Source: Melioribacteraceae bacterium (GTDB lineage Bacteria; Bacteroidota; Ignavibacteria; Ignavibacteriales; Melioribacteraceae). From it: a DNA stretch of 64,000 nucleotides. Where the stretch lies: contig JAIPBD010000008.1 of NCBI GenBank assembly GCA_021739765.1, forward strand, positions 1-64,000. Direction: 5' to 3'. The position numbers and the translations under genes are program-made. Positions 7,698 to 40,175 of the stretch are shown piece after piece (positions within the stretch are counted from its first letter, which is position 1; each line of letters starts with the position of its first letter). The notes below the pieces were generated by a model. That model saw only the letters and a program-made list of their open reading frames with translations, searched no databases and was not told the DNA's origin.

Positions 7698-7964
7698 ATG
7701 GAGACAATATTATTTCTGTTGTTAGTCATCATTACAGTTCTTTTCTGTATGTTATTACAGGCATTTTATTTAACAGTTACTTCAGAAAATCGTTGTTGGA
7801 AATCATTGCTAAGAATGTTTACAAGAATTATTCCAACATCTGTTGTCACAATAGTAATTGGTATTGAGGTATATTTAGCCATCTACGAAAATGTATTCTA
7901 TATTTCATTAATAATTCTACCTATAATTCATTATTTGGGATTAGTTATGTTTAGATCCAAATAA
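7698..7964 (+). CDS. Small membrane protein, paralogue of the gene at 8471
   Basis: The 88-residue protein has three predicted hydrophobic segments: an N-terminal one (ILFLLLVIITVLFCMLLQAF), a central one (TSVVTIVIGIEVYLAI) and a C-terminal one (FYISLIILPIIHYLGLVMF). It aligns along its whole length with the product of 8471-8740, including the spacing of the hydrophobic blocks, IxELYLx in the middle and a final positively charged MFRSK/MKSE tail. ATG at 7698 is chosen over an upstream in-frame TTG because the hydrophobic start matches the paralogue. Function unknown. Confidence 0.6.
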   Translation: METILFLLLVIITVLFCMLLQAFYLTVTSENRCWKSLLRMFTRIIPTSVVTIVIGIEVYLAIYENVFYISLIILPIIHYLGLVMFRSK

Positions 7965-8062
7965 AAGGATATAAGGTCGAATAATAATCAAATTTGATTA
8001 TTTAAAAACTATCTACTATTTTAACACGCATTATTGCTATTAATCCAAATTCAAGAGATTAT

Positions 8063-8359
8063 ATGTTAAAAGAAGAAGTAATTTCCAACGTTTTGCAATT
8101 TGTAAAAGAAAATAACGGCGATAATTATGATTATTATGTGGGAACATCTAACGATCCAGGTACAAAAATGTTCTCAATTCACTTAGTCCAACCTCTCGGC
8201 GGAATTTACAAGTATGTTAAACTTGATAATATTGAAGAAGCTTCGGAAACTAAAAAGCAACTCATTTCTACTTTTGGGTTTGACGGGCAACTCTCTGACG
8301 GATCCACAAAGTCTCAATATTTATACATTTATAAAAAAACTCAATCCAGTAAAGAATAA
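8063..8359 (+). CDS. Hypothetical protein, 98 residues
   Basis: This small soluble protein lies between the two paralogous membrane genes. It has no signal or membrane segment. The sequence starts MLKEEVISNVLQFVKENN and contains a short basic/acidic mixture ending YLYIYKKTQSSKE. No family is recognised. The ATG has an AAGAGA upstream at a usable distance. It may be part of the same duplicated unit, though no second copy was seen. Confidence 0.5.
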   Translation: MLKEEVISNVLQFVKENNGDNYDYYVGTSNDPGTKMFSIHLVQPLGGIYKYVKLDNIEEASETKKQLISTFGFDGQLSDGSTKSQYLYIYKKTQSSKE

Positions 8360-8400
8360 TCTAGGTGAGGCTAATTTATATTCTTAATTAAAAATTTAAA

Positions 8401-8422
8401 GTAATTATACTGAGTCCGTTTT
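8401..8422 (+). repeat. Conserved leader element, copy 2
   Basis: This is the second copy of the 22-base element at 7630-7651, in the same orientation and about 50 bases before the ATG of the paralogous membrane gene at 8471. Two substitutions separate the copies. The rest of the intergenic sequence is far less alike, so the element is preferentially conserved. Confidence 0.55.
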
Positions 8423-8470
8423 CGAATATTCTTATTAACATTTGTTTGAAAATAATAAGATGAGGAAAGA

Positions 8471-8740
8471 ATGGAATTAATTTTATCAATAATCCTGGTA
8501 TTTGTTTCTGCTTTTTTTTGTGCTCATTTGTTCGACTTAACCCTTGAAAATGAATTCAAAAACTTAACTATGAAACGAATTAAAAATGAAAAAGGGAGAA
8601 TTGTATTGCCAATAATTGTTATCATCATATCAATAGTTTTAGAACTGTATTTGGTTTTGAGTTCAAGCGTGTGGTATGCAATAACTTTAATTATTCCAAT
8701 AATTTATTTCGCTGGTATATTCACTATGAAGTCGGAGTAG
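8471..8740 (+). CDS. Small membrane protein, paralogue of the gene at 7698
   Basis: The 89-residue product has three hydrophobic segments (residues ~2-20, ~48-65 and ~70-85) separated by a charged loop (EFKNLTMKRIKNEKGR). It aligns end to end with the protein at 7698-7964 but is clearly diverged, which indicates an old tandem duplication. AGGAAAG precedes the ATG. No known family was recognised and there is no catalytic motif. A role in the inner membrane is all that can be said. Confidence 0.6.
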   Translation: MELILSIILVFVSAFFCAHLFDLTLENEFKNLTMKRIKNEKGRIVLPIIVIIISIVLELYLVLSSSVWYAITLIIPIIYFAGIFTMKSE

Positions 8741-9199: not shown

Positions 9200-11152
9200 C
9201 TACTTGAGATTATTTCTAACCCAATCTTCTAATCCACCTGCTACAATTATTTCCTGAGCAGCTTTACCGATGGGTTGAAAATAAAAATCATTACCATCGA
9301 TGTTAAGAACCGATTTCGTAAAATTCATCACCGCTTCATATCCGGTATTGATTGTTAGCTTATCTGAATCCAGTTTTGTTTTAAGAAAATCAACCAACTT
9401 GGGAATTTGGATAGTAAGAAATCCATTATTGATCGCGTTTCTGACATAGGTCGCTGAGAATGACCCACTTAAAACTACTTGAATTCCTTTATATTTTAAA
9501 GCGGTTGCTGCCTGCTCGCGCGAACTTCCGGTTCCAAAATTATATCCGCCGACAAGGATGTCGCCGGATTTCGCAATCTCGTTAAATTTTGCATCGTAGT
9601 TTTCCATAACTACCGAAGCTTGAAATTCGGGAGTTAAATCATCCTGATATGTGTATTTACCCGGAAAAATACCATCAGTATTTAGATTGTCCTGTGGGCA
9701 AAAGATCAAATTACCTTTAATTTCTCGCGGAAATCCTTCAATCAATTCCGCATCTTCGGTTGATTCGCTAATTCGTCTATTTTCTCTGATCGTAGCCGAT
9801 ATCTTTGAAGGTATAATTTCTGAAATTGGAGCATCAATAAATCCTTGTAATGCAGAATAAGCAACCACTTCCGGAGAGGCAAGATAAGCCAGCGCATTTT
9901 TGGAGCCCATTCGTCCTTTAAAATTCCTATTAGTAGCCGAGATTCCAATCTCGCCATCTTCTAATAATCCTGTGCCTAAACCGATGCACGGCCCGCAACC
10001 GGGAGGAAGTGCGATAGCGCCGGCGTCAAGTAAAACTTGCCAATCGCCTTCATTTTCTGCTCTTTTCTGAACCTCGCTAGATGCTGCCGCGATATAAAAT
10101 TTCACATTTTTCGAGATTTTTTTGTATTTGAGTATGTCGGCAGCTTCTTTAATGTCTTCGAATCTGCTATTAACACAAGAAACGAGATAAGCTTTATTCA
10201 CTTTTAATTTTTGATCTCGAAGTGCTGAAATTGGCGACATCACTTTTACCGAGTTTGGGCCGGAAACATGTGGTTCGATCGAAGAAAGGTCTATCGATAG
10301 TTCTTTAGAGTAAAATGCGTCCTTATCCGGTACAAGATCAAACATTTGTGTTTTTAGTGTTGCGAGTTTATCATGAGTGAGCCTCGGATTGGTTCCGCGT
10401 TCATCTTTTCTTTCCAAATCGGAAATTCTGTTCTCCAACCATGTAATTGTTCGAAAATCGATCGGAAATAGTCCGACTAACGCGCCCCATTCGGTTGTCA
10501 TATTCGCGATTGTTAATCTTTGATCAACCGAGAGGTAATCGACTCCATCTCCACAGAATTCTATCGCATGGTTAAGAACTTCATCATTGTTGAAAAAGCC
10601 ACAGAGAGCGATAATTACATCTTTTCCTTTTACTCCTGTATTTAATTTTCCTTTTAATTCAACTTTTACAGTCGGGGGAATTTGCCACCAAGTTTTTCCT
10701 GTTGCCCAAATCGATGCGGCATCGGTTCGTACAATCGGAGTTCCGAGAACGCCAAGCCCGCCATACATATTTGAATGACTATCCGAAGCGACGACCATTG
10801 TTCCTGGCCAAGCGTATCCTTCTTCACACATAATTTGATGACCGATTCCTCGTCCGGCGGGATAAAAATCCGCTCCCATTTCACGCGAGAATTTTTCAAT
10901 ATTCCGGTATTTCTCCAGATTTTTTTCGCTCGTGTCCTGAATATTATGATCCAAAGTATGAACGACTTGATTTGGGAAAGCCAGTTTAGTGGCACCAATT
11001 TGATGAAATTTGGGAATGACAGCTCCGGTATTATCGTGTGTCATCACATAAGCCGGCCGGATTGAAATAAACTCTCCGGTTTTTACTTTGTGAGATTCTT
11101 TTAGACCTAAAGCATGTTTCTGAACGATTTTTTCTACTAATGTTTGTCCCAT
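9200..11152 (-). CDS. Aconitase-superfamily hydratase of the homoaconitase (Lys4) type
   Basis: The 650-residue protein is a complete aconitase-fold enzyme with catalytic core and a C-terminal swivel domain (~480-650, GTGSSREQAA). The 4Fe-4S ligands are C326 (SCVNSR), C386 and C389 (GCGPCIG). Its N-terminal segments VMTHDNTGAVIPKF, FYPAGRGIGHQIM and VASDSHSNMYGG...GTPIVRTDAA closely resemble fungal homoaconitase rather than AcnA or AcnB, and the length fits Lys4. It should interconvert a tertiary and a secondary hydroxy-tricarboxylate: citrate/isocitrate, homocitrate/homoisocitrate or a methyl analogue. It shares a strand and tight spacing with an isocitrate dehydrogenase-family gene upstream, giving the next step of the pathway. 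Confidence 0.82.
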   Translation of the reverse strand: MGQTLVEKIVQKHALGLKESHKVKTGEFISIRPAYVMTHDNTGAVIPKFHQIGATKLAFPNQVVHTLDHNIQDTSEKNLEKYRNIEKFSREMGADFYPAGRGIGHQIMCEEGYAWPGTMVVASDSHSNMYGGLGVLGTPIVRTDAASIWATGKTWWQIPPTVKVELKGKLNTGVKGKDVIIALCGFFNNDEVLNHAIEFCGDGVDYLSVDQRLTIANMTTEWGALVGLFPIDFRTITWLENRISDLERKDERGTNPRLTHDKLATLKTQMFDLVPDKDAFYSKELSIDLSSIEPHVSGPNSVKVMSPISALRDQKLKVNKAYLVSCVNSRFEDIKEAADILKYKKISKNVKFYIAAASSEVQKRAENEGDWQVLLDAGAIALPPGCGPCIGLGTGLLEDGEIGISATNRNFKGRMGSKNALAYLASPEVVAYSALQGFIDAPISEIIPSKISATIRENRRISESTEDAELIEGFPREIKGNLIFCPQDNLNTDGIFPGKYTYQDDLTPEFQASVVMENYDAKFNEIAKSGDILVGGYNFGTGSSREQAATALKYKGIQVVLSGSFSATYVRNAINNGFLTIQIPKLVDFLKTKLDSDKLTINTGYEAVMNFTKSVLNIDGNDFYFQPIGKAAQEIIVAGGLEDWVRNNLK

Positions 11153-31502: not shown

Positions 31503-31722
31503 TTATGTCCCGTTTAACAACCGCCAACGAATGTTCAAGTCCGACTGTTTTTATCACTCCGATTTTGCAGGATGAGAAGATTTTGTTCAACTTATCTTTT
31601 GACCGGAAAACTAAGTATTCAAAGCAAATCATAATTGAATATCGAGTTTATCGCATACTTTTCTTTACAAATATACTATCATTTTTCTTTCTGATTTCCG
31701 GGTCCTGGATCTTCGCCTTTGG

Positions 31723-31815
31723 TGTCATGCTCATAATTGCCACCGTGTTCAATCGAGAATTGTTGTCACGGTATCAAATTCAGAGATGAATTCTAAGACC
31801 GTGACAGCCTTGTAG
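31723..31815 (+). repeat. Cassette-associated repeat, copy A (shortened)
   Basis: The 43-bp hairpin TGTCACGGT...ACCGTGACA is at 31764-31806 with a 25-base loop. To its left about 45-50 bases of the consensus are missing: GTGTCATGCTCATAAT joins directly to sequence resembling TGTTCAATCGAGAA. The element lies just after the stop of vapC on the minus strand. Confidence 0.85.
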
Positions 31816-31862
31816 TGCGCTTTGAGTTGGCGTTGAAACTCTGGTTTGCATTATACTCAATT

Positions 31863-32246
31863 CTAAATTTTCACTAATTTCAGAGCAATATATTCGTATA
31901 TTAATTTAAAATGTTTGTCATTAGAAAATAAAATAAGATCATTTTGAATAGCATTGTCGACAATTATCAGATCAGGGATGCCAACTTTGTTAATTCCATT
32001 TTTAAGACAAATCGTCTGATACTCAATTATCTGATTCCAATTAATATTCAGTGGGATTATTGATATTTCGGTGAGCAAATCTATTATTTTCTTTTCTTTT
32101 CTAATTCTGAGGTTTGGAATAAGTTCGGACAAAATTAAATGATTCGTGCAAATTACATTTTCATCAATGTATGAATCCATCACTTCAGAATTCTTCCCAC
32201 CCCGAAAATAATCAATCCAAATTGAACTGTCTACCAAAATTCTCAT
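31863..32246 (-). CDS. vapC: VapC-type PIN-domain toxin
   Basis: The 127-residue protein has the PIN fold of VapC ribonuclease toxins: D6 in RILVDSSIWIDYF, the conserved glutamate in HLILSELIPNL, and D in GIPDLIIVDNAI with a further aspartate in LFSNDKHF. VapC toxins cut tRNA or rRNA and stop translation. The ATG overlaps the stop of the antitoxin gene (ATGA at 32243-32246), the classical antitoxin-first operon. It is the first of several cassettes bounded by the repeat family. Confidence 0.92.
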   Translation of the reverse strand: MRILVDSSIWIDYFRGGKNSEVMDSYIDENVICTNHLILSELIPNLRIRKEKKIIDLLTEISIIPLNINWNQIIEYQTICLKNGINKVGIPDLIIVDNAIQNDLILFSNDKHFKLIYEYIALKLVKI

Positions 32247-32437
32247 TGTCTCTTTCTTAATGTATCTAAATCAATATCAAGATCTATTTTACCTCGATAT
32301 TTTTTCAATTCCATTATCTTATTTTTTTGGATAATATTTTCCAGGGCAAGTTTTATTAGTTCTGTTTTGGTTTTACTTTGGGTTATTCTTAATGCCTCGT
32401 TTATAAGTCCTTCGGGAATATCTAATGTTGTTCTCAT
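32243..32437 (-). CDS. vapB: VapB-type antitoxin
   Basis: The 64-residue protein starts RTTLDIPEGLINEALRITQ and continues SKTKTELIKLALENIIQ, a ribbon-helix-helix DNA-binding domain of VapB type. The C-terminal ~20 residues (KYRGKIDLDIDLDTLRKR) match the toxin-binding tail that inserts into VapC. It should repress its own promoter together with the toxin. GGAG lies eight bases before the ATG. The promoter region contains a GTTAGC-type box (reverse strand of 32525-32531) discussed as a cassette boundary. Confidence 0.92.
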   Translation of the reverse strand: MRTTLDIPEGLINEALRITQSKTKTELIKLALENIIQKNKIMELKKYRGKIDLDIDLDTLRKRQ

Positions 32438-32595
32438 TTTCTATCTCCAATTTTATGCATAAGATAATTGATTGTTTATGCATATTCAAGGATGAAACTG
32501 AGGGTCTAATTTATTTGTAAGTAATGCTAACAATTATATAACCCGACCAGCTTCCGAAATAAAAGGGAAGCAATCGCCGGCGTTATTTCTTTTAT

Positions 32596-32740
32596 CCATG
32601 GCTGACATGCTCACAATAACGATCGAAATAATTACACCATGACACAAACCGAACACCCAAATTGCCACAGTTTTTAATCGAGAAATGTTGTCACGGTATC
32701 AAATTCAAAGATTAATTCTAAGACCGTGACAGCCTATAAA
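32596..32740 (+). repeat. Cassette-associated repeat, copy B
   Basis: The copy contains the left part (CCATGGCTGACATGC...CACCATGACAC), the linker CTGCCACAG-like region and the 43-bp hairpin at 32689-32731 (9-bp arms TGTCACGGT/ACCGTGACA). The right part of the long consensus, seen in copies C and F, is absent after CAGCCTATAAA. Confidence 0.88.
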
Positions 32741-32800
32741 AAGCAAATAGACTAATTTTATGAATAACACTAAAATATAAAGTAATGTTTCCTGAACTTT

Positions 32801-32861
32801 TTGTAAAATAAACTTGACATTTATTTGCCGACGGCTTACATTTGTAAAGTTTATTTTACAA
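32801..32861 (+). promoter_or_regulatory. Promoter and 15-bp inverted-repeat operator of the membrane protein/repressor operon
   Basis: TTGTAAAATAAACTT (32801-32815) and its exact inverse AAGTTTATTTTACAA (32847-32861) flank a -35-like TTGACA at 32814 and a -10-like TACATT about 17-18 bases later. Two operator arms around a promoter 20 bases before the start suit autoregulation by the Cro-type protein encoded in the operon, perhaps by looping of two dimers. Confidence 0.72.
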
Positions 32862-32881
32862 TTTATACAAGGAGCTTTACT

Positions 32882-33286
32882 TTGGAAAAGAATAATTGGC
32901 AAACAAAAAATAAAAAGAATACGCTGAATTTAGCTGTAGTTATGGTAATTTGGCTTATTTCAATGGCGGTGGCTGCTTTTGGCCCGCGTTCAATTTGGAA
33001 TTTTAATCAAGAGCTTACACTTATCGCTATTATCGCAAACTTTGTTCTGGGCATCGCGGTAATATTCGCGTACATACGGCATATAAAAGGGCAGGACGAA
33101 ATGCAGCAGAAAATACAGCTCGAGGCAATGGCTATTACTCTCGGCGTGGCAGTTTTCGGCGGATTGAGTTATTCCCTGCTCGACTCGACAAACGTAATTC
33201 ACAAGGCGGAAATTTCTCACATCGTTATTTTAATTAGTATAACATACATGGCGGCTTTGATTATCGGGAGGATTCGCTACAAATGA
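32882..33286 (+). CDS. Four-helix membrane protein paired with a repressor
   Basis: The start is TTG at 32882: AAGGAG ends seven bases before it and no ATG fits. The 134-residue product has four hydrophobic segments (residues ~17-35, ~44-62, ~85-103, ~113-128) and a short KGQDEMQQK cytoplasmic loop. Pairs of a small multi-helix membrane protein with a YgzD-like repressor are common in bacteria, often involved in stress or metabolite-dependent regulation, but the function of this one is unknown. The next gene starts in its stop codon (ATGA). Confidence 0.75.
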   Translation: MEKNNWQTKNKKNTLNLAVVMVIWLISMAVAAFGPRSIWNFNQELTLIAIIANFVLGIAVIFAYIRHIKGQDEMQQKIQLEAMAITLGVAVFGGLSYSLLDSTNVIHKAEISHIVILISITYMAALIIGRIRYK

Positions 33287-33483
33287 AAAATAGATTAAAA
33301 GTACTGCGCTCCGAAAGAGACTGGACTCAAGAAAAACTTTCAAATGAACTTGAAGTCTCTAGACAGACAATTAACGCAATTGAAAAAGGAAAGTTTGATC
33401 CTTCGCTTCCCTTAGCGTTTAAGATTGCCCGTTTGTTTAGTTTATCAATTGAAGAAATTTTTGAATACAGCGAAGATAATTAG
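33283..33483 (+). CDS. Cro/CI-type helix-turn-helix repressor
   Basis: The 66-residue protein is almost a bare XRE domain: LKVLRSERDWTQEKLSNEL gives helices 1-2, VSRQTINAIEKGKFDPS the recognition helix, and LAFKIARLFSLSIEEIFEY the rest. It belongs to the short YgzD/YozG group. It probably represses its own operon at the inverted repeat 32801-32861. It is the only plus-strand cassette in the array, opposite to all neighbours. Confidence 0.9.
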   Translation: MKNRLKVLRSERDWTQEKLSNELEVSRQTINAIEKGKFDPSLPLAFKIARLFSLSIEEIFEYSEDN

Positions 33484-33566
33484 ATCCGAAACATCACAGC
33501 TGTCACGGTTCGACGTGACAGCCGAGTAAATAATAAAAAGAATAACATGAAATGTAATTTGGACAT
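33480..33566 (-). pseudogene. Truncated 5' remnant of a histidine kinase gene
   Basis: From the ATG at 33566 the minus strand reads MSKLHFMLFFLLF, which matches the start of the kinase at 35795-37396 (MSKIHFMFFF) at both protein and DNA level, with the same ribosome-binding leader. After about ten codons it runs into a hairpin, GCTGTCACG/CGTGACAGC (33499-33522), and stops at 33480, inside the end of the repressor gene. The rest of the kinase gene is gone, so this is a deletion scar, not a gene. Confidence 0.75.
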
Positions 33567-33894
33567 AATAGCTCCTTTCCTTTTAAGTTATGAAAACAGC
33601 TAACGGTTGACGTAAAGCAGCACCCTAAAACAGCTCCATGGCTGTCATGGTCATAATAGCGATCCAAATAATTGCAACCATGACACAAACTGAACACCTA
33701 AACTGCCACAGTTTTTAATCGAGAAATGTTGTCACGGTATCAAATTCAAAGATTAATTCTAAGACCGTGACAGCCTTGTAAAAAAATATTTGACACTTTG
33801 AGGCTTGTCCGCCGTTTTGTTGGGCGGGCATCCTTATGCCTTTCCATCAATATTTATTTTAACCAACTTTGCGTGGGCTTTAATCGGAATAACT
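33561..33894 (+). repeat. Cassette-associated repeat, copy C (long form)
   Basis: This 334-base copy aligns with copy F (37391-37724) with no net insertion or deletion and roughly one difference in ten bases. It holds two hairpins of identical size: TGTCATGGT...ACCATGACA (33643-33685) and TGTCACGGT...ACCGTGACA (33730-33772), both 43 bp with 25-base loops. To the right are TTTGACACTTTGAGGC, a CCGCC/GGCGG hairpin and CGGAATAAC. The left end includes AGCTAAC at 33598. Confidence 0.92.
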
Positions 33895-33908
33895 GGTCAC
33901 AAAACTTT

Positions 33909-34376
33909 TCATCTATATTCGTATGAAATTTCAATGCGATATCCATCTTCCTCATTTTCAAAAACATAGGGCAATTGAGGCCCGTCCTCTACGACCGGGA
34001 TATCGGCTGGATCTATATTAAATTCGTACATTTTATCATCAGAAAATGCATCCGCATCGAAGATAATTATTTCGAAGGGAGCATTTAACTGATAAATTAT
34101 ACAATCAGACATGATTATTTTAATTGGAAGATCTGATCTACTTACATCTTCATGTCTACTAGATCTTGTGTTTTCAATTAAAATATTTCGATAATCATAA
34201 ACCTTCAAATAAACATCAGCTCCTCCACTTTTATCCCAGCTTGAACCATTTGATTTCACGAAAGATATTTTTTCTAATTTAATTTCATTAATAATCAGCT
34301 TTGATACAGAACTTTGAGCTGAAATGATTCCTGAAACGAAAAGAATAAGAATACCAAGTAAAAATCTCTTTCTCAT
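33909..34376 (-). CDS. Secreted orphan protein, 155 residues
   Basis: The ATG at 34376 gives a clear signal peptide (RKRFLLGILILFVSGIISAQ). The mature protein is beta-rich with several acidic patches (FDADAFSDDKM, FENEEDGYRIEI) and might be a C2-like or other beta-sandwich domain that binds calcium, but no family was recognised. A longer in-frame reading upstream lacks a signal and crosses a GTTAGAA box, so the shorter start is chosen. It is a single-gene cassette between copies C and D of the repeat. Confidence 0.6.
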   Translation of the reverse strand: MRKRFLLGILILFVSGIISAQSSVSKLIINEIKLEKISFVKSNGSSWDKSGGADVYLKVYDYRNILIENTRSSRHEDVSRSDLPIKIIMSDCIIYQLNAPFEIIIFDADAFSDDKMYEFNIDPADIPVVEDGPQLPYVFENEEDGYRIEISYEYR

Positions 34377-34572
34377 AATGACCCCAATATTATTTTGATA
34401 ATTTGTTAACCAACTTATTTCTAACACCACTGTAATTAACTACCCCTCGTATTATTCACGATAAACAACTTCTATTTTAATAAAACCTTGTTTGCCACGG
34501 ACTTAAAAATAGCTCTGTTTTTAACACTAATCATAGAATATTTTCGAGAATAATTTTAAACGACCTTAATGT

Positions 34573-34829
34573 AGGTGTCATGCTAATAATAACGACCTAA
34601 TAATTACACCATGACACAAACTGAACACCTAAACTGCCACAGTTTTTAATCGAGAAATGTTGTCACGGTATCAAATTCAAAGATTAATTCTAAGACCGTG
34701 ATAACCATGCAAAGAACTATTTGACACTTGGCCGCCGTTTTGTTGGTCGGGCATTCTTATGACTCTTTATCAATATTTATTTTCATCAACTTTGTGCTGA
34801 CTTTAACCGGAATAACTTGTTATATGTAA
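34573..34829 (+). repeat. Cassette-associated repeat, copy D
   Basis: The hairpin is at 34661-34703 with its right arm decayed to ACCGTGATA. The right half (TTTGACACTTG, CCGCCGTTTTGTTGG, CGGAATAACTT) is present with an 8-base shortening relative to copies C and F, and ends in GTTATATG at 34818, five bases from the toxin stop. Confidence 0.88.
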
Positions 34830-34834
34830 TATTA

Positions 34835-35134
34835 TCAACGACCAAATAATTCATCTTTTCTTAATAATCTATGCGCCTCAAATACGGTAAGTATATCAAT
34901 TGAGTTTTGCTTTATGATATAAACAATTCTATAATTTTTATGAATTACTTCTCGGATGGTTTCTATTGATAACTCAGGTACAATTCTTCCTTTTTCTGGT
35001 TTATTTATAATTGATTCTCCAGTAGTAATTAATTCATCAACGAATCTTATTGCTGCACTTGGGTTATCTCTTGCAATATATTCTTCGATTTCGAGTAATC
35101 TTAATTGTGATTCTCTTGTCCATAATATTTTCAT
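34835..35134 (-). CDS. ParE/RelE-type toxin
   Basis: The 99-residue protein begins KILWTRESQLRLLEIEEYIARDN and continues PEKGRIVPEL, IREVIHKNYRIVYII and ILTVFEAHRLLRK, the standard core of ParE/RelE toxins (plasmid stabilisation family). ParE members inhibit gyrase and RelE members cut mRNA; the C-terminal HRLL favours ParE but is not decisive. The ATG at 35134 overlaps the antitoxin's TGA by one base (TGATG), so the antitoxin is made first. Confidence 0.9.
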   Translation of the reverse strand: MKILWTRESQLRLLEIEEYIARDNPSAAIRFVDELITTGESIINKPEKGRIVPELSIETIREVIHKNYRIVYIIKQNSIDILTVFEAHRLLRKDELFGR

Positions 35135-35421
35135 CAATTTTTATCGGCTCGTGATTTTTTAAGTTCATTTCTAAGTTGTGAAATTGTTAATACTTTTCCT
35201 TTTTCTGAATCTGACAAACCACGTGAAACAGAATCAATGAATAATTTGGTTTGTCTTAACTCATCAAATTCTGCAGGCGAAATTAGGACACCAGCCGGTT
35301 TACCATTTTGAGTAATTATTAGAGAATTACGTTTATCTTGTATCTCTTTTAAATACTTAGCTAAACCAGATTTAAATTGACCAACAGGAATTATATCATT
35401 TGCAACCAATATATTTTTCAT
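35134..35421 (-). CDS. Phd/YefM-type antitoxin
   Basis: The 95-residue protein has the Phd/YefM opening with IIPVGQFKSGLAKYLKEIQ and the hallmark LIITQNGKPAGVLISPAEFDEL, a dimeric DNA-binding fold. The charged C-terminal helix (LTISQLRNELKKS) should wrap the toxin. It would repress its own promoter. It is the first gene of the cassette; ATATAAC (reverse GTTATAT) lies 79 bases upstream at 35500-35506. Confidence 0.9.
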   Translation of the reverse strand: MKNILVANDIIPVGQFKSGLAKYLKEIQDKRNSLIITQNGKPAGVLISPAEFDELRQTKLFIDSVSRGLSDSEKGKVLTISQLRNELKKSRADKN

Positions 35422-35601
35422 TTTCGCGACCTTTCTTTGTCTTTATTTTAGCCTTAATATAATCCCATATTATGACTTTCTCAAGAATATTTTCGGAGCA
35501 TATAACGCCGTTGTGCTTAACCCGCAGCCCAGAACAGCAATGCTTAACTTGCAACCAATGTTAATAATTTGTAGCCGACAGAAAATTACATTAAACTGGC
35601 G

Positions 35602-35782
35602 GCGACCTAATAATTGCAACCATGACACAAACAGAACACCCAAATTGCCACAGTTTTCAATCGAGAAATGTTGTCACGGTATCAAATTCAAGGATTAATT
35701 CTAAGACCGTGACAGCCTTGTAAATTATTGTCATGGTATCAATTTCAGAGATTAATTCTAAGCCTGGGACAGCCTTGTAAAC
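35602..35782 (+). repeat. Cassette-associated repeat, copy E (double hairpin)
   Basis: Two tandem versions of the second hairpin are present: TGTCACGGT...ACCGTGACA at 35672-35714 and a decayed one, TGTCATGGT...CTGGGACA, at 35729-35771, both followed by GCCTTGTAAA. The long right half of copies C, D and F is missing, and the kinase gene ends 12 bases later. Confidence 0.85.
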
Positions 35783-35794
35783 CATCACACAATA

Positions 35795-37396
35795 TCATGC
35801 ATTAAATGCTACCGTAAAAACGGTACCAACACCAACCTTAGAATTAACAAGGAGCTCGGCATTATTTAATTGACAATAACGGTATGCTAAACTTAAACCC
35901 AGCCCTGTACCATCAAATTCGCGTGTATAGCCTTGTTTTTCTTGAGAAAACGGAGTGAATAATTGTGGAATAAATTCTTCAGGAATGCCTATTCCCGTAT
36001 CCTTGATACTTACACATAGTTTATTATCAATTTCCTCAATAACTACTTTAATTATCCCTTCTTCAGTAAATTTAATTGCATTATCTAATAGGTTCGAAAA
36101 TATCTGTAATATTGAGTACTCATCGGCTTCAATACGGCGAGGAGTTGTTTTAACAATTTTCTTGATCTCTAGCTCTTTTTCGCGTAATTCGACATAGAAT
36201 TCCTTCATTAACATATCAATAATGTCTTTCTCTATGTCCAAAGTGGTTTTATTTGCTTTATATGTTCCGGTTTTTAACTCTGAGAAATTTACAATTAAAT
36301 CAATAGTTCTAACTAATCTTTTAGTTGCTAATTTTATTGAATCAAGAAGAATTTTCGAGTCATCTTCAGGGTCTTCATTTTTTGATATCTCCTCCTTAAT
36401 AAACTCATAACCACTCACTAGAATATTAATTGGTGTTCTTATTTCGTGAGAAATTTGTGCGATAAATTCTGACTTTATTTTACTCAGCCTTTCAGTTTCT
36501 GCTTTGGCTTCGATCAAAGCTTTTGTTTTGTTCATAACCTCTTTTTTTAAGGTTCTATTCCAAAAGAATATAAGTACGAGAATAAATCCAAGTAACAACA
36601 CCGTTATTGCGGCCCATTTATAATATTCCTCATATTTTTGTGCATCTTCATCGTACATGAACCATTTTTTATATAATGCATCATAAGTTCCATCTTTTTT
36701 AAATGTTGAAATTGCAGTGTTTATTTGTGCACATAACAAACTGTCGTTCTTACCCACAGCAAAGCCATACTCTCTTGGTGCTATTATAAAAGAGGCAGAA
36801 TGTACATTTTCTAATCCAAACCGTTTAATGTTTGCTGTACCCGAATAATAGTTTCCGATCGCATAATCATATACCTCACTACTCACAAGCTTCAGAGCTT
36901 CTACTTCCGTACTTACTTCGACTAAGTTGATATTTGCCATATTACTTTTTAAATATTCCGATACAAATCCGTCTCTTTCAACAAGAATTTCTTTGTCTTT
37001 AAGTTGGGAAATATTTTCAACGGAGAGATCTTTAGAATTAGTAAAAAGGTTGTCGTATGTCAATATAATAGGTAGGCAATATTCAAGGTACTTGGCACGT
37101 GTTGTTGAGTAATAAAGTGATGTCAAATCATATTTACTTCCATTCTGTAATGAATTTAAAATCGAATGCCAGGGTTTAAGCTCAATTTCTATTTTTACAC
37201 CGGCTTTCTTACTTATTGCATCCAGCAAGTCAATTACAAACCCTTTGGGTTTATTATTCTGATCTAAATATTCGAAAGGATAAAAATCTATATTACCGCC
37301 ATACTTCAAAACATCTTTATGAAAAGACACCTCTTGAGAATAAATATCAAAGACATTAATTACTATAAAGAAGAACATAAAATGTATTTTGGACAT
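35795..37396 (-). CDS. Hybrid sensor histidine kinase with periplasmic solute-binding (SBP_bac_3) domain
   Basis: The 533-residue protein has a signal peptide, a periplasmic family-3 solute-binding domain (GNIDFYPFEYLDQNN, KGFVIDLLDAISKKAGV, residues ~30-245), one membrane helix (WAAITVLLLGFILVLIFFW), and a kinase core: FIAQISHEIRTP (phosphorylated His), LLDNAIKFTEEG (N box), DTGIGIPEEF and GTGLGLSLAYR (G boxes). It likely senses an amino acid-like ligand. No receiver domain or response regulator gene is next to it, unusual for such kinases; it stands alone as a cassette. A truncated copy of its start lies at 33566. Confidence 0.88.
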   Translation of the reverse strand: MSKIHFMFFFIVINVFDIYSQEVSFHKDVLKYGGNIDFYPFEYLDQNNKPKGFVIDLLDAISKKAGVKIEIELKPWHSILNSLQNGSKYDLTSLYYSTTRAKYLEYCLPIILTYDNLFTNSKDLSVENISQLKDKEILVERDGFVSEYLKSNMANINLVEVSTEVEALKLVSSEVYDYAIGNYYSGTANIKRFGLENVHSASFIIAPREYGFAVGKNDSLLCAQINTAISTFKKDGTYDALYKKWFMYDEDAQKYEEYYKWAAITVLLLGFILVLIFFWNRTLKKEVMNKTKALIEAKAETERLSKIKSEFIAQISHEIRTPINILVSGYEFIKEEISKNEDPEDDSKILLDSIKLATKRLVRTIDLIVNFSELKTGTYKANKTTLDIEKDIIDMLMKEFYVELREKELEIKKIVKTTPRRIEADEYSILQIFSNLLDNAIKFTEEGIIKVVIEEIDNKLCVSIKDTGIGIPEEFIPQLFTPFSQEKQGYTREFDGTGLGLSLAYRYCQLNNAELLVNSKVGVGTVFTVAFNA

Positions 37397-37724
37397 AATA
37401 GCTCCTTTCCTTTTAAGTTACGAAAACAGCTAACGGTTGACGCTAAGCAGCGCCCTAAAACAGCTCCATGGCTGACATGCTCACAATAACGATTCAAATA
37501 ATTGTAACCATGACACAAACTGAACACTTAAACTGCCACAGATTTCAATCGAGAAATGTTGTCACGGTATCAATTTCAAAGAATAATTCTAAAACCGTGA
37601 CAGCCTATAAAGAAATATTTGACACTTTGAGGCTTGTCCGCCGTTTTGTTGGGCGGGCATCCTTATGTCTCTTTATCAATATTTATTTTAATCAACTTTG
37701 CCTTGACTTTTTATCGGAATAACT
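37391..37724 (+). repeat. Cassette-associated repeat, copy F (long form)
   Basis: The copy is directly repeated and gapless relative to copy C, 3,830 bases away. The hairpin is at 37560-37602. The left end overlaps the first codons of the kinase gene and contains AGCTAAC at 37428 (reverse GTTAGCT), preceded on the minus strand by GCGTCAACC. The right end carries CGGAATAACTTGTCGTATG and borders the nuclease stop. Confidence 0.92.
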
Positions 37725-37739
37725 TGTCGTATGCATTTT

Positions 37740-38954
37740 CTAATTACCTCTCCATCTCCAAGCTCTTCGAAATCCATACTTTTCTGCTTCATCGACAGTT
37801 GAGGCATAAAATTCGTTTTTATCTTGCTCGATAATTGTACCATCATATTGTTGATCAAACGGTAAATGATATATTTTACTCCCATCTCGCCTTGAAATAT
37901 TACATTTTATTGATGGATATTTTTCGAATGCAACATTTGGATGAAGTTCAATCCCAAGTAACTGTGCAAATTTTTTAGAAGTATCTGAAAAGGAACATGT
38001 AGCATAGAAAGAACCTCTAATATTATTGCTTTTCAATAATTCAGGAAACAAGCCCAGCTGAGTAGATGATTCATCGAAATTGGTATTTTTTATAAAATAC
38101 TCAACAGTAGTTCCAAAAAGTTGATTAATATGTTTCTCGTGGATAGTTCTTTCAACTCGCCAATATTTACATTGAACAATTTTAACTTCATTTCCTTTTT
38201 TGCAAATTAAATCACGCCCTAAATCTTCAAGACCTTTTTCGATTCCTTGATAATTTACTGTCCATCCATTAGATTCGAATAAATAGCCAATATATCTTTC
38301 ATAATCACGGCCTATTTGCCATGGCGTTTTTTTCTTTTTCCAATATCTATCTAAAGCACGTTGGTTTCTTTCTGTTTCATTTAATTGTTCGTATTCACCT
38401 TTTGTTACAAAATATTGAACAGGATCTGATTCTTCATCTAATTCATCAGCCGAAAATGCATCAAGTAATGTATCATCAATATTTGCATCAGCAAAATCAT
38501 TTAGCCAGGGAAATAAGGCTTCATAATATTTTAATAGGTTGCGAGAATAAAGAAAGCTCTTTCTTAGTTTAGTTTTTTGTTTCGATATTTCACGGATGGC
38601 TTCAGCTGCTTTTTTTGCGGCCCATTTTTTATAATCAAAGTAATTTGCAACACCCAAATCAAGCAATTCAAAATATTGGCAAATAGCGTCGGTAAGCCAC
38701 GGGAAGCCTTTTGTTTTTTCAATAATTATTGTATCAATTTCAGCTAAGGTTTCCTTCTTATATATGTCAATACTACTTTCTAATTTGGCTAGATTATTTT
38801 TTTTATTTTCATAATCTTCATTGAGGGAATTTTGTAGTTTTTTCAATGTGTCAATTTCAGATTGTACTTTACTCAGAATGATTTCTAGTTCTGATTTAAT
38901 ATCGACTGAATCTCTTAATTTTTCAATTAACCTGCTGTCATTTGAAGAGAACAT
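37740..38954 (-). CDS. Coiled-coil protein with Mrr-like restriction endonuclease domain
   Basis: Residues ~10-75 of this 404-residue protein form a long charged coiled coil (ELEIILSKVQSEIDTLKKL). A helical region follows, then a PD-(D/E)XK nuclease core of Mrr type from ~215: GRDYERYIGYLFES, DLGRDLI with the metal-binding Asp, and VKIVQCKYW giving QxK. A short C-terminal module (EFYASTVDEAEKYGFRRAW) resembles the small tails on other such nucleases. It probably cuts DNA in defence against phages or plasmids. Its first 17 bases overlap the end of the small membrane-protein gene, so both form one unit. Confidence 0.8.
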   Translation of the reverse strand: MFSSNDSRLIEKLRDSVDIKSELEIILSKVQSEIDTLKKLQNSLNEDYENKKNNLAKLESSIDIYKKETLAEIDTIIIEKTKGFPWLTDAICQYFELLDLGVANYFDYKKWAAKKAAEAIREISKQKTKLRKSFLYSRNLLKYYEALFPWLNDFADANIDDTLLDAFSADELDEESDPVQYFVTKGEYEQLNETERNQRALDRYWKKKKTPWQIGRDYERYIGYLFESNGWTVNYQGIEKGLEDLGRDLICKKGNEVKIVQCKYWRVERTIHEKHINQLFGTTVEYFIKNTNFDESSTQLGLFPELLKSNNIRGSFYATCSFSDTSKKFAQLLGIELHPNVAFEKYPSIKCNISRRDGSKIYHLPFDQQYDGTIIEQDKNEFYASTVDEAEKYGFRRAWRWRGN

Positions 38955-39267
38955 CTCTCATCTGCTCGTTTTTATATTTGTATTTTTTATTTAACGTATT
39001 AAGGAAATAATATTTTGTAAAGTCATTATTATTCAATTTAGGTTTAGGAAGTTTTATTTTTTGTTGACTTGTGTCTTTTGAGATTAAATTCTTATAAAAC
39101 TCTATGTTTTCATGGTACATTTCATAATCTATTGAATCCAGTTTTCCGCTATTATTTATTAATACTTTTTTTAAATGATTATTTACACGTACTTTTTTTA
39201 TATAATCTACTACTGAAGCAACGATAGATAATCCAATTATAATCGCAAAAAATATTAGTACTTCCAT
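38938..39267 (-). CDS. Small single-span membrane protein coupled to the nuclease
   Basis: The 109-residue protein has one N-terminal membrane helix (VLIFFAIIIGLSIVASVV) followed by a basic, helical cytoplasmic part (VRVNNHLKKVLINNS, KNLISKDTSQQKIKLPKP). No family was recognised. Its stop lies 17 bases inside the nuclease gene, so translation is coupled. A membrane sensor or anchor that recruits or controls the nuclease is a reasonable guess. The upstream 200 bases contain no other gene. Confidence 0.6.
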   Translation of the reverse strand: MEVLIFFAIIIGLSIVASVVDYIKKVRVNNHLKKVLINNSGKLDSIDYEMYHENIEFYKNLISKDTSQQKIKLPKPKLNNNDFTKYYFLNTLNKKYKYKNEQMRDVLFK

Positions 39268-39781
39268 ATTAACCTAAGCGTATAGTTGTTATTTAACCCG
39301 ACACACTGGGTTTTGAAATATTTTATTTGCAGGAAGTTTCATTCTTGATGGCAATCTCCTAATTGTATCTATTATTTTGTAAGTCCTATAACAACTACTT
39401 ACCACCCAATATATTTTTATGATTTAATGTCAGCAAGAATCTATTTCATGCGAATACTCCTAATTTCCTATCAGTCTAACGGACTTATAACGGCGGCACC
39501 CATATTGGTAAAATGTGTATTTATCATCTTAGTCTTTTCGGTTTTGGGGCTGTAACTGTTTCTTTGTAATGAGATTCTTACTTGATCAAGTAGTTTAGGT
39601 TTCTTTAGTATTTTAATTGAAGTGGTCAATTTATCCCGTTAAAAAGAGTTGAAATCTTTTGTTCCCAAAATAATTGAATGTCAGTTAGAAGATAAGTAGT
39701 AAATATATACTATACAAGAGTAAGAGATCAAAAGATAAGTCTTTGTAATGCCCCCCAAATTTCCGGCTCATCATTTTCCGG
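39268..39781. other. Non-coding border of the cassette array with a GTTRRRY box
   Basis: No coding frame is convincing here. GTCTAAC at 39474-39480 reads GTTAGAC on the minus strand, an exact GTTRRRY box, preceded there by GCCGCCGTTATAAGTCC. This resembles the right end of an integron attC site and lies upstream of the two-gene nuclease cassette. The rest is AT-rich with no clear structure. Confidence 0.5.
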
Positions 39782-40175
39782 TGACGAAATACAATTTTTT
39801 CGCCCCGATGCATTTTCCATGACGCAATGTCACTTTTTCATGACCCCGAGTGATTTTTTTATGACGCAGTGCAATTTTTTACGACCCCGAGTGATTTTTT
39901 TGTGACGCAATGCCATTTTTTCATGACCCCGAGTGATTTTACTGTGACGCAATGCCATTTTTTAATGACCCCGGGTTATTTTTCATTGACCCGATACCAC
40001 TTTTTTATGCTCCCGTGTGATTTTTTTGTGGCGTTATACCGTTTTTTCGCGCCCTGCAGTTATTTTTTAATGCCTTGGAGTCATTTTCTCATGCCCTGGA
40101 GTCAATTTCCCGTGCCCTGATGTAATATTCTCAAGCCCTGGTGTTATTTTTTCTTGCCGTTATGCCATTTTTTCA
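39782..40175. repeat. Degenerate tandem repeat of exact 21-bp period with phased T-tracts
   Basis: About nineteen units run from TGACGAAATACAATTTTTTCG onward. From 39820 the period is 21 bases with a single 20-base unit at 39883. Each unit is a GC-richer head (TGACGCAATGCC or TGACCCCGAGTG) and usually a run of five to seven T. In 39820-39965 the two head types alternate, giving a 42-base higher-order unit. Later units drift to TGCCCTGGAGTC. A frame through the array exists but encodes only heptad echoes of the repeat and has no ribosome site. Confidence 0.92.

Follow-up and report, generated by a model that had tools for sequence, protein, structure and literature searches.

Clusters of attC sites without an integrase (CALINs, in the sense of IntegronFinder) have been described as degraded integrons, and complete integrons are noted in Ignavibacteriae (PMC9024848). 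In Treponema, the integrase gene (intI) is co-directional with the cassettes, and T. phagedenis retains attC sites although its intI has apparently been lost (PMC3607928). A long variable terminal structure (VTS) is reported to lower attC recombination in replicative conditions (PMC8946536). The locus considered here lies in a window of 64,000 nucleotides (nt) from a Melioribacteraceae bacterium of the order Ignavibacteriales (assembly GCA_021739765.1, contig JAIPBD010000008.1, positions 1 to 64,000, forward strand), in which small gene units alternate with copies of a palindromic repeat. It is likely to be a decayed chromosomal integron with co-directional intI, in which the halves of the attC and attI sites have been separated, truncated or hybridised around a repeat specific to this genome.

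The locus resembles a CALIN in being a cassette array without a complete intI; unlike a CALIN, it yielded no intact attC, its sites being broken by a genome-specific palindromic repeat, and it retains a deleted intI and an attI-like site. A strict CALIN has at least two attC sites without an integrase; only attC halves were found here, and the locus is therefore a relic integron rather than a CALIN in the strict sense. As in the reverse integrons of Treponema, intI is transcribed toward attI, here the attI-like site, and in the same direction as the cassettes, whereas the attC sites there measure 63–132 bp (PMC3607928), against 171–212 nt between R boxes in three Ignavibacteriales relatives. 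The complete integrons of Ignavibacteriae and Chlorobi (PMC9024848) belong to the same clade, but the one in the window is decayed and its sites bear a 147-nt repeat. Literature searches, judged beyond the three papers cited above from their listings, found no published account of attC sites broken up by palindromic repeats. The parts of the relic and its junctions are as follows.

39471..39629, minus strand: internally deleted intI, an open reading frame (ORF) of 52 amino acids, recognised by BLASTP at both ends and by its SPLD end
39474..39480, minus strand: GTTAGAC, coding sequence of the IntI C-terminus SPLD
39277..39302, minus strand: attI-like site GTCGGGTTAAATAACA/ACTATACGC, which the deleted intI precedes by about 185 nt, recognised by likeness to the attI motif of locus L082
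37428..37734, minus strand: junction F, with a cassette end R'' (GCATACGAC, then AAGTTATTCC), repeat copy F and an attC-like right half ending GTCAACC/GTTAGCT; no end-to-end stem
35507..35781, minus strand: junction E, with copy E and a partial second copy, then an attC right half (GGGCTGCGGGTTAAGCACAACGGC/GTTATATGC) identical at 33/34 nt to an attC end of the integrase-bearing array L086
34819..35506, minus strand: Phd/ParE cassette, genes 35421-34835, start box GTTATATGC, end ACATATAAC; same cassette and ends in L086 and L091, complementary ends in 10 further loci
34576..34818, minus strand: repeat copy D and its extension, following immediately on the R'' end of the Phd/ParE cassette
33598..33904, minus strand: junction C, made up as F and 90% identical to it over 259 nt
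32532..32742, minus strand: junction B, with copy B and an attI-like half GTCGGGTTATATAATT/GTTAGCAT (at 32547, up to 3 mismatches to the attI motif)
31844..32531, minus strand: VapBC cassette (PIN and VapB), start GTTAGCATT, end AATGCAAAC; ends 8/9 complementary, null 0.013
31711..31843, minus strand: junction A, where truncated copy A follows an attC-like left half (CAG AGTTTC A ACGCC A ACTC); comparison by eye showed no right half

The array is headed by what remains of an integrase gene. In the 52-residue ORF, about 25 N-terminal residues are fused in frame to about 20 C-terminal residues ending in SPLD and a stop, the middle being missing; in BLASTP, the N-terminal part is identical at 14/25 positions to residues 31-55 of L086 IntI, and the C-terminal part at 13/21 positions to residues 308-328 of L072 IntI. 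The SPLD C-terminus is found in 20/20 IntI loci examined, which come from 18 genomes. As NCBIfam and Pfam gave no match to the remnant, it is identified from pairwise comparison, from the SPLD end and from a second copy, a truncated intI head on contig C1 at 75 kb (E 9.6e-6) that shares 294 nt with the window at 85%; a profile match to the remnant (E 6.4e-5) is not independent, the window row having been included in the alignment. A 42-nt tandem repeat lies upstream of the deleted intI (39789-40165), and the second head, at L189 4210-5030 (C1:74.2-75.0 kb), has its upstream region, a 42-nt minisatellite included, in common with window positions 39531-40174. The earlier note, made from the sequence alone, had seen no integrase and had counted GTTAGAC at 39474-39480 among its cassette boxes; these letters are codons of the integrase C-terminus. 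GTTAGAC was also considered as attI and is ruled out in that role, being conserved coding sequence in all 20 IntI loci.

No IntI above the TIGR02249 cut-off occurs anywhere in the genome (99.8% complete), while 24/58 relatives have one; the genome search that the earlier note had called for thus returned no complete integrase, only the deleted remnant and the second truncated head, and an integrase with an intact core, as expected of an integron, is represented by the remnant alone. The minus-strand remnant heads a minus-strand array, the co-directional layout of reverse integrons; likewise, intI points the same way as the array in L072, L086 and L087, with the array 3' of intI.

The attI-like site that follows the remnant reads GTCGGGTTAAATAACA/ACTATAC and departs from the L082 attI motif at 4 of 20 positions (null 13/20000). 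Over both strands of the whole window only two attI-like sites occur, at 39302 and, before the VapBC cassette, at 32547. A motif ending TAATA/GTT, altered in some cases, stands 141-194 nt after the end of IntI in 9/20 intI loci.

Judged from its ends and its relatives, the Phd/ParE unit at least is a true cassette. Its DNA is 75% identical to the cassette of L086, which belongs to another family of the order and has an intact intI co-directional with its attC array; the start GTTATATGC and the end CATATAAC are present in both. The same cassette as in L086 (G057:C1) is carried by L091 (contig JAKAGV010000013.1), and the closest cassette match is a Melioribacteraceae metagenome-assembled genome, at 92%. 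The count of Phd/ParE loci covers 46 of 80 (L090-L135, labelled Ignavibacteria, Melioribacteraceae, Bacteroidetes, Chlorobiota and the like), with L136 (a partial match), L149 (Melioribacteraceae) and 32 others left out. In 11/46 the start box, with at most two changes, is matched by a far-end complement of at least 8/9 positions; six of these are 9/9, and one lies in an integrase-bearing array. With the window, whose Phd/ParE ends are 8/9 complementary, the figure becomes 12/47; a start box alone stands at 24/47 loci, in some of them by chance. In island L047 of the same genome, the ends are complementary at 9/9 positions in two cassettes and at 8/9 in a third, in a test that took in 10 of 11 motif matches, the L050 match being left out. 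Cassettes with complementary R'/R'' ends common to several arrays, as in integrons, are thus represented by the Phd/ParE unit and by the two 9/9 pairs of L047.

The integron-like layout proposed in the earlier note is accordingly borne out by the deleted intI, the attI-like site, the Phd/ParE cassette common to an integrase-bearing array and the complementary cassette ends. Its GTT boxes fared unevenly: the box at 35500-35506 stands after comparison with L086 and the 46 loci, and that at 32525-32531 is supported by the complement after vapC together with the attI-like left side, while those at 33598-33604 and 37428-37434 resemble attC R' halves for whose cassettes no complementary far end was seen by eye.

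The repeat itself proved to be a single family, as the earlier note had described. Six copies of a 122-nt family, all in one orientation, lie at 31711, 32636, 33677, 34608, 35619 and 37507 with 65-100% identity, and a seventh, partial copy lies at 35723-35781; the inner hairpin (at most three mismatches) has six matches in the window against 0 in 100 dinucleotide shuffles. The copies vary in extent around a 147-nt common core, to which about 110 nt of extra extension are added in six copies of the genome, three of them in the window, and in all six the extension begins directly after a cassette end. Two related 43-nt palindromes of the form TGTCAYGG-N-CCRTGACA are contained in the core; a genome-wide count gives 39 occurrences of the form, many within cores, and 0 of the backward control pattern. 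All six copies in the window adjoin an attC or attI half, as seen by eye. Further copies, which the earlier note had proposed to look for, are indeed present: the genome (4.54 Mb in 37 contigs) holds 28 matches in six clusters (window cluster C33, 7; C15, 9; C13, 5; C6, 4; C1, 2; C18, 1), a count from which copies may be missing because 4/6 clusters are no more than about 1.3 kb from the end of a contig. A single 21-nt repeat match was found in the 58 relatives, and none to the exact pattern in genome_contigs and viral_contigs, where records very near this genome were possibly excluded; by these comparisons, the 147-nt repeat is peculiar to the genome of the window. The 59 genomes compared contain no second member of its genus. 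An Rfam scan of 30-41 kb gave no match at gathering scores, and the whole-site fold of copy D was no better than shuffles. Elsewhere in the genome, five tandem palindromes spaced at about 168 nt occupy L190 6410-7125, and in L047 and L048 a second dispersed repeat (GTGGCAGAGCCACGACATGTTTATAGA) lies between cores, bringing the R''-R' distance near 700 nt at two L047 sites.

Repetitive extragenic palindromic (REP) sequences and bacterial interspersed mosaic elements (BIMEs) are dispersed intergenic palindromic repeats. The repeat of the window is like them in consisting of dispersed intergenic palindromes, paired in a composite, and could itself be a mobile BIME-like element, made of two palindromes and directed at folded attC sites, for whose movement a Y1 (REP-type) transposase may be responsible. 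The two palindromes of the core agree with such an element, as do the solitary palindromes that stand between ordinary genes at L185, L186, L187 and L188, the two L051 cores found where a restriction-enzyme-like gene and a PIN-like gene (named by eye) end, apparently cut short, the three Y1_Tnp matches in the genome and the attC or attI half beside each window copy. Unlike REP and BIME sequences, however, the repeat has no demonstrated link to a TnpA-REP gene and has many of its copies at former attC sites. There was no sign of a target duplication or of an empty site, nor, by eye, of a REP 5' tetranucleotide foot, and no attC half is visible beside the copies in islands L049, L050 and L051, which leaves a specificity for attC unproven. 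On this balance, a mobile element of this type seems rather improbable.

The earlier note had also suggested a new kind of attC. In that case the sites would be giant, of about 290-340 nt (about 700 at two L047 sites), with the palindromic repeat as VTS, and would still be recognised by an integrase acting in trans. It is true that six cassette ends lead into the same extension and 147-nt core, and that three L047 sites, with cassette ends of 9/9, 9/9 and 8/9, keep a consistent L''/L' pair (CCGATT/AATCGG). The folding tests, however, speak against it. A scan for AAC/GTT-anchored ends with strong pairing was positive at array positions in the integrase-bearing L086 (4), L072 (3) and L087 (3), which provide the R-box distances given above, and found none in the window between 31.0 and 40.3 kb on either strand, nor any in L195; there were one match in a 53 kb control window, nine scattered over 42 kb of other islands of the genome (six in L051) but none at the tested boxes, and one chance-like match each in L086 and L072. 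F and one L047 site would be overlooked with the AAC anchor, so a direct test was made. For five own sites (F, C and three from L047) the end-to-end duplex lies between -7.5 and -9.1 kcal/mol, within the shuffle range in 5/5, against z of -4 or below in 6/7 sites of relatives, 86_2 being the failure (the row 86_PhdParE_R2only, with a placeholder right end, is uncounted, and the L087 sites are outside the set). In whole-site folds, the ends pair on the bottom strand in 0/4 own sites against 8/10 in relatives, and on the top strand in 1/4 (C) against 8/10; whole-fold z-scores separated own and relatives' sites poorly. Imperfect palindromes with pairing ends, as in attC, were thus absent in the tests used, and the 147-nt repeat as attC body is ruled out by the duplex, fold and scan tests. 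Considering in addition the want of an IntI above cut-off, the copies in islands without an attC half, and the halves recognisable beside the window copies, a giant attC appears very unlikely. An ordinary genomic island driven by homologous recombination between repeats, and never an integron, would account for the repeat's presence in several islands, for the mixed junctions C and F and for the position of 4/6 clusters near contig ends, but is contradicted by the deleted intI, the attI-like site and the Phd/ParE cassette, whose ends recur with it in an integrase-bearing array, and is hardly credible.

Several observations weigh against the interpretation as a decayed integron. The 52-residue remnant has no NCBIfam or Pfam match at E up to 1, and a full IntI query reaches it only at E 0.148. 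At the attI-like site at 39302, the crossover GTT is altered, and the likeness was first spotted by eye, the L082 motif being the better of two tried (the other gave 7 mismatches). Complements of 8/9 occur at 2/4 chance sites, so that only 9/9 or independently placed cases carry weight, and C and F, two of the six extended repeat sites, lack a complementary partner. The window and L047, where halves were seen, hold only 12/28 repeat matches, plus one by eye in L048; the L047 sites retain R''/R' and a 6-bp L''/L' match, and some function is possible there. The attC tests are imperfect, as site 86_2 of L086 (13178-13361) was missed by the scan and failed the duplex and fold tests, and 86d lacks bottom-strand end pairs; for this reason a weak attC in the window could have been missed. 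Finally, the repeat may have reached the sites by insertion or by recombination.

With these reservations, the history of the decayed integron may be reconstructed as follows. To judge from the cassette ends, cassettes would once have been brought in at attI by an IntI, through attI x attC recombination. intI would then have lost most of its middle, leaving the 52-codon in-frame remnant, while the attI-like site and the cassettes stayed. The 147-nt repeat with its two palindromes would have become lodged in or beside the attC and attI sites, of which there appear to remain halves, left (R''-L'') or right (L'-R'), in part hybrid and, in the sites tested, not pairing. F and C are read from their sequence as such hybrids, each with left and right halves of different types, and C resembles F beyond the box as well, as far as the first part of the kinase unit. 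The repeats probably serve as homology for RecA-type exchange and deletion; the reshaping of islands by homologous recombination, offered by the earlier note as the alternative to a new attC, would thus fit as a later layer on a former integron. The genome itself can probably no longer move the array as cassettes, although such ends as are intact could still serve a foreign IntI. We infer the order of decay, the role of the repeats in homologous exchange and the loss of mobility.

The locus would then illustrate a possible course of integron death, in which the integrase is deleted, the attI-like site and cassettes are kept and attC is broken by a repeat, and it suggests that palindromic repeats can replace attC as recombination points after integrase loss. 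Searches that require a foldable attC or a whole integrase would probably miss such a relic.

attI-like sites are also repeated inside arrays of integrase-bearing or related Ignavibacteriales, at 9492, 13098 and 17661 in L082, at 2588, 3761, 8226 and 10743 in L075, and in L116 and L195. In L082, two extra sites stand behind short intI heads that were also detected by profile (open frames of 71 and 77 amino acids); in L075, the sites stand behind DNA repeats of the intI 5' region, where the profile gave no confirmation. Short intI heads were found by profile search in several other relatives, some at contig ends. As a tentative and rather doubtful extension, deleted intI heads with attI may recur as units in those Ignavibacteriales integrons whose intI reads into the array, perhaps as mobile promoter-plus-attI modules that restart the array; the head in the window would be one of them, and attC-invading palindromic repeats would take over shuffling once the integrase is lost. 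The repeated deleted-intI/attI units in L082, and perhaps in L075, may outweigh the finding in the window in interest.

The remaining gene units of the window are listed below.

37730..39273, minus strand: cassette 1, a small membrane-like protein (39267-38938) and an Mrr-like nuclease (38954-37740), from a Mrr_cat match and similarity to L195
35795..37396, minus strand: lone sensor histidine kinase (SBP_bac_3, HisKA and HATPase_c matches), its unit starting at box 37434
33909..34430, minus strand: secreted orphan protein, no Pfam match
32825..33483, plus strand: membrane protein and HTH_3 repressor (HTH_3 match), opposite in direction to the other units

The contents of the units are broadly those that the earlier note had read from the ORFs, as Pfam matches, ParE and Phd among them, confirm, except that the pair of membrane protein and repressor lies on the plus strand. 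The membrane protein beside HTH_3 has no match above cut-off, nor has the small protein beside the Mrr_cat nuclease a Pfam match. Relatives of the Mrr unit occur in 3/164 other genomes. Similarity to L197 and L196 is shorter and uninformative on limits; similarity to L195, which belongs to another family of the order, amounts to 74% of the DNA from 39273 to 37730 and ends close to the cassette limits. In L048, a MazEF-like pair (7954-8540, by eye) lies between repeat copies, and an attI-like end, seen by eye and not recovered by the motif search, stands ahead of it.

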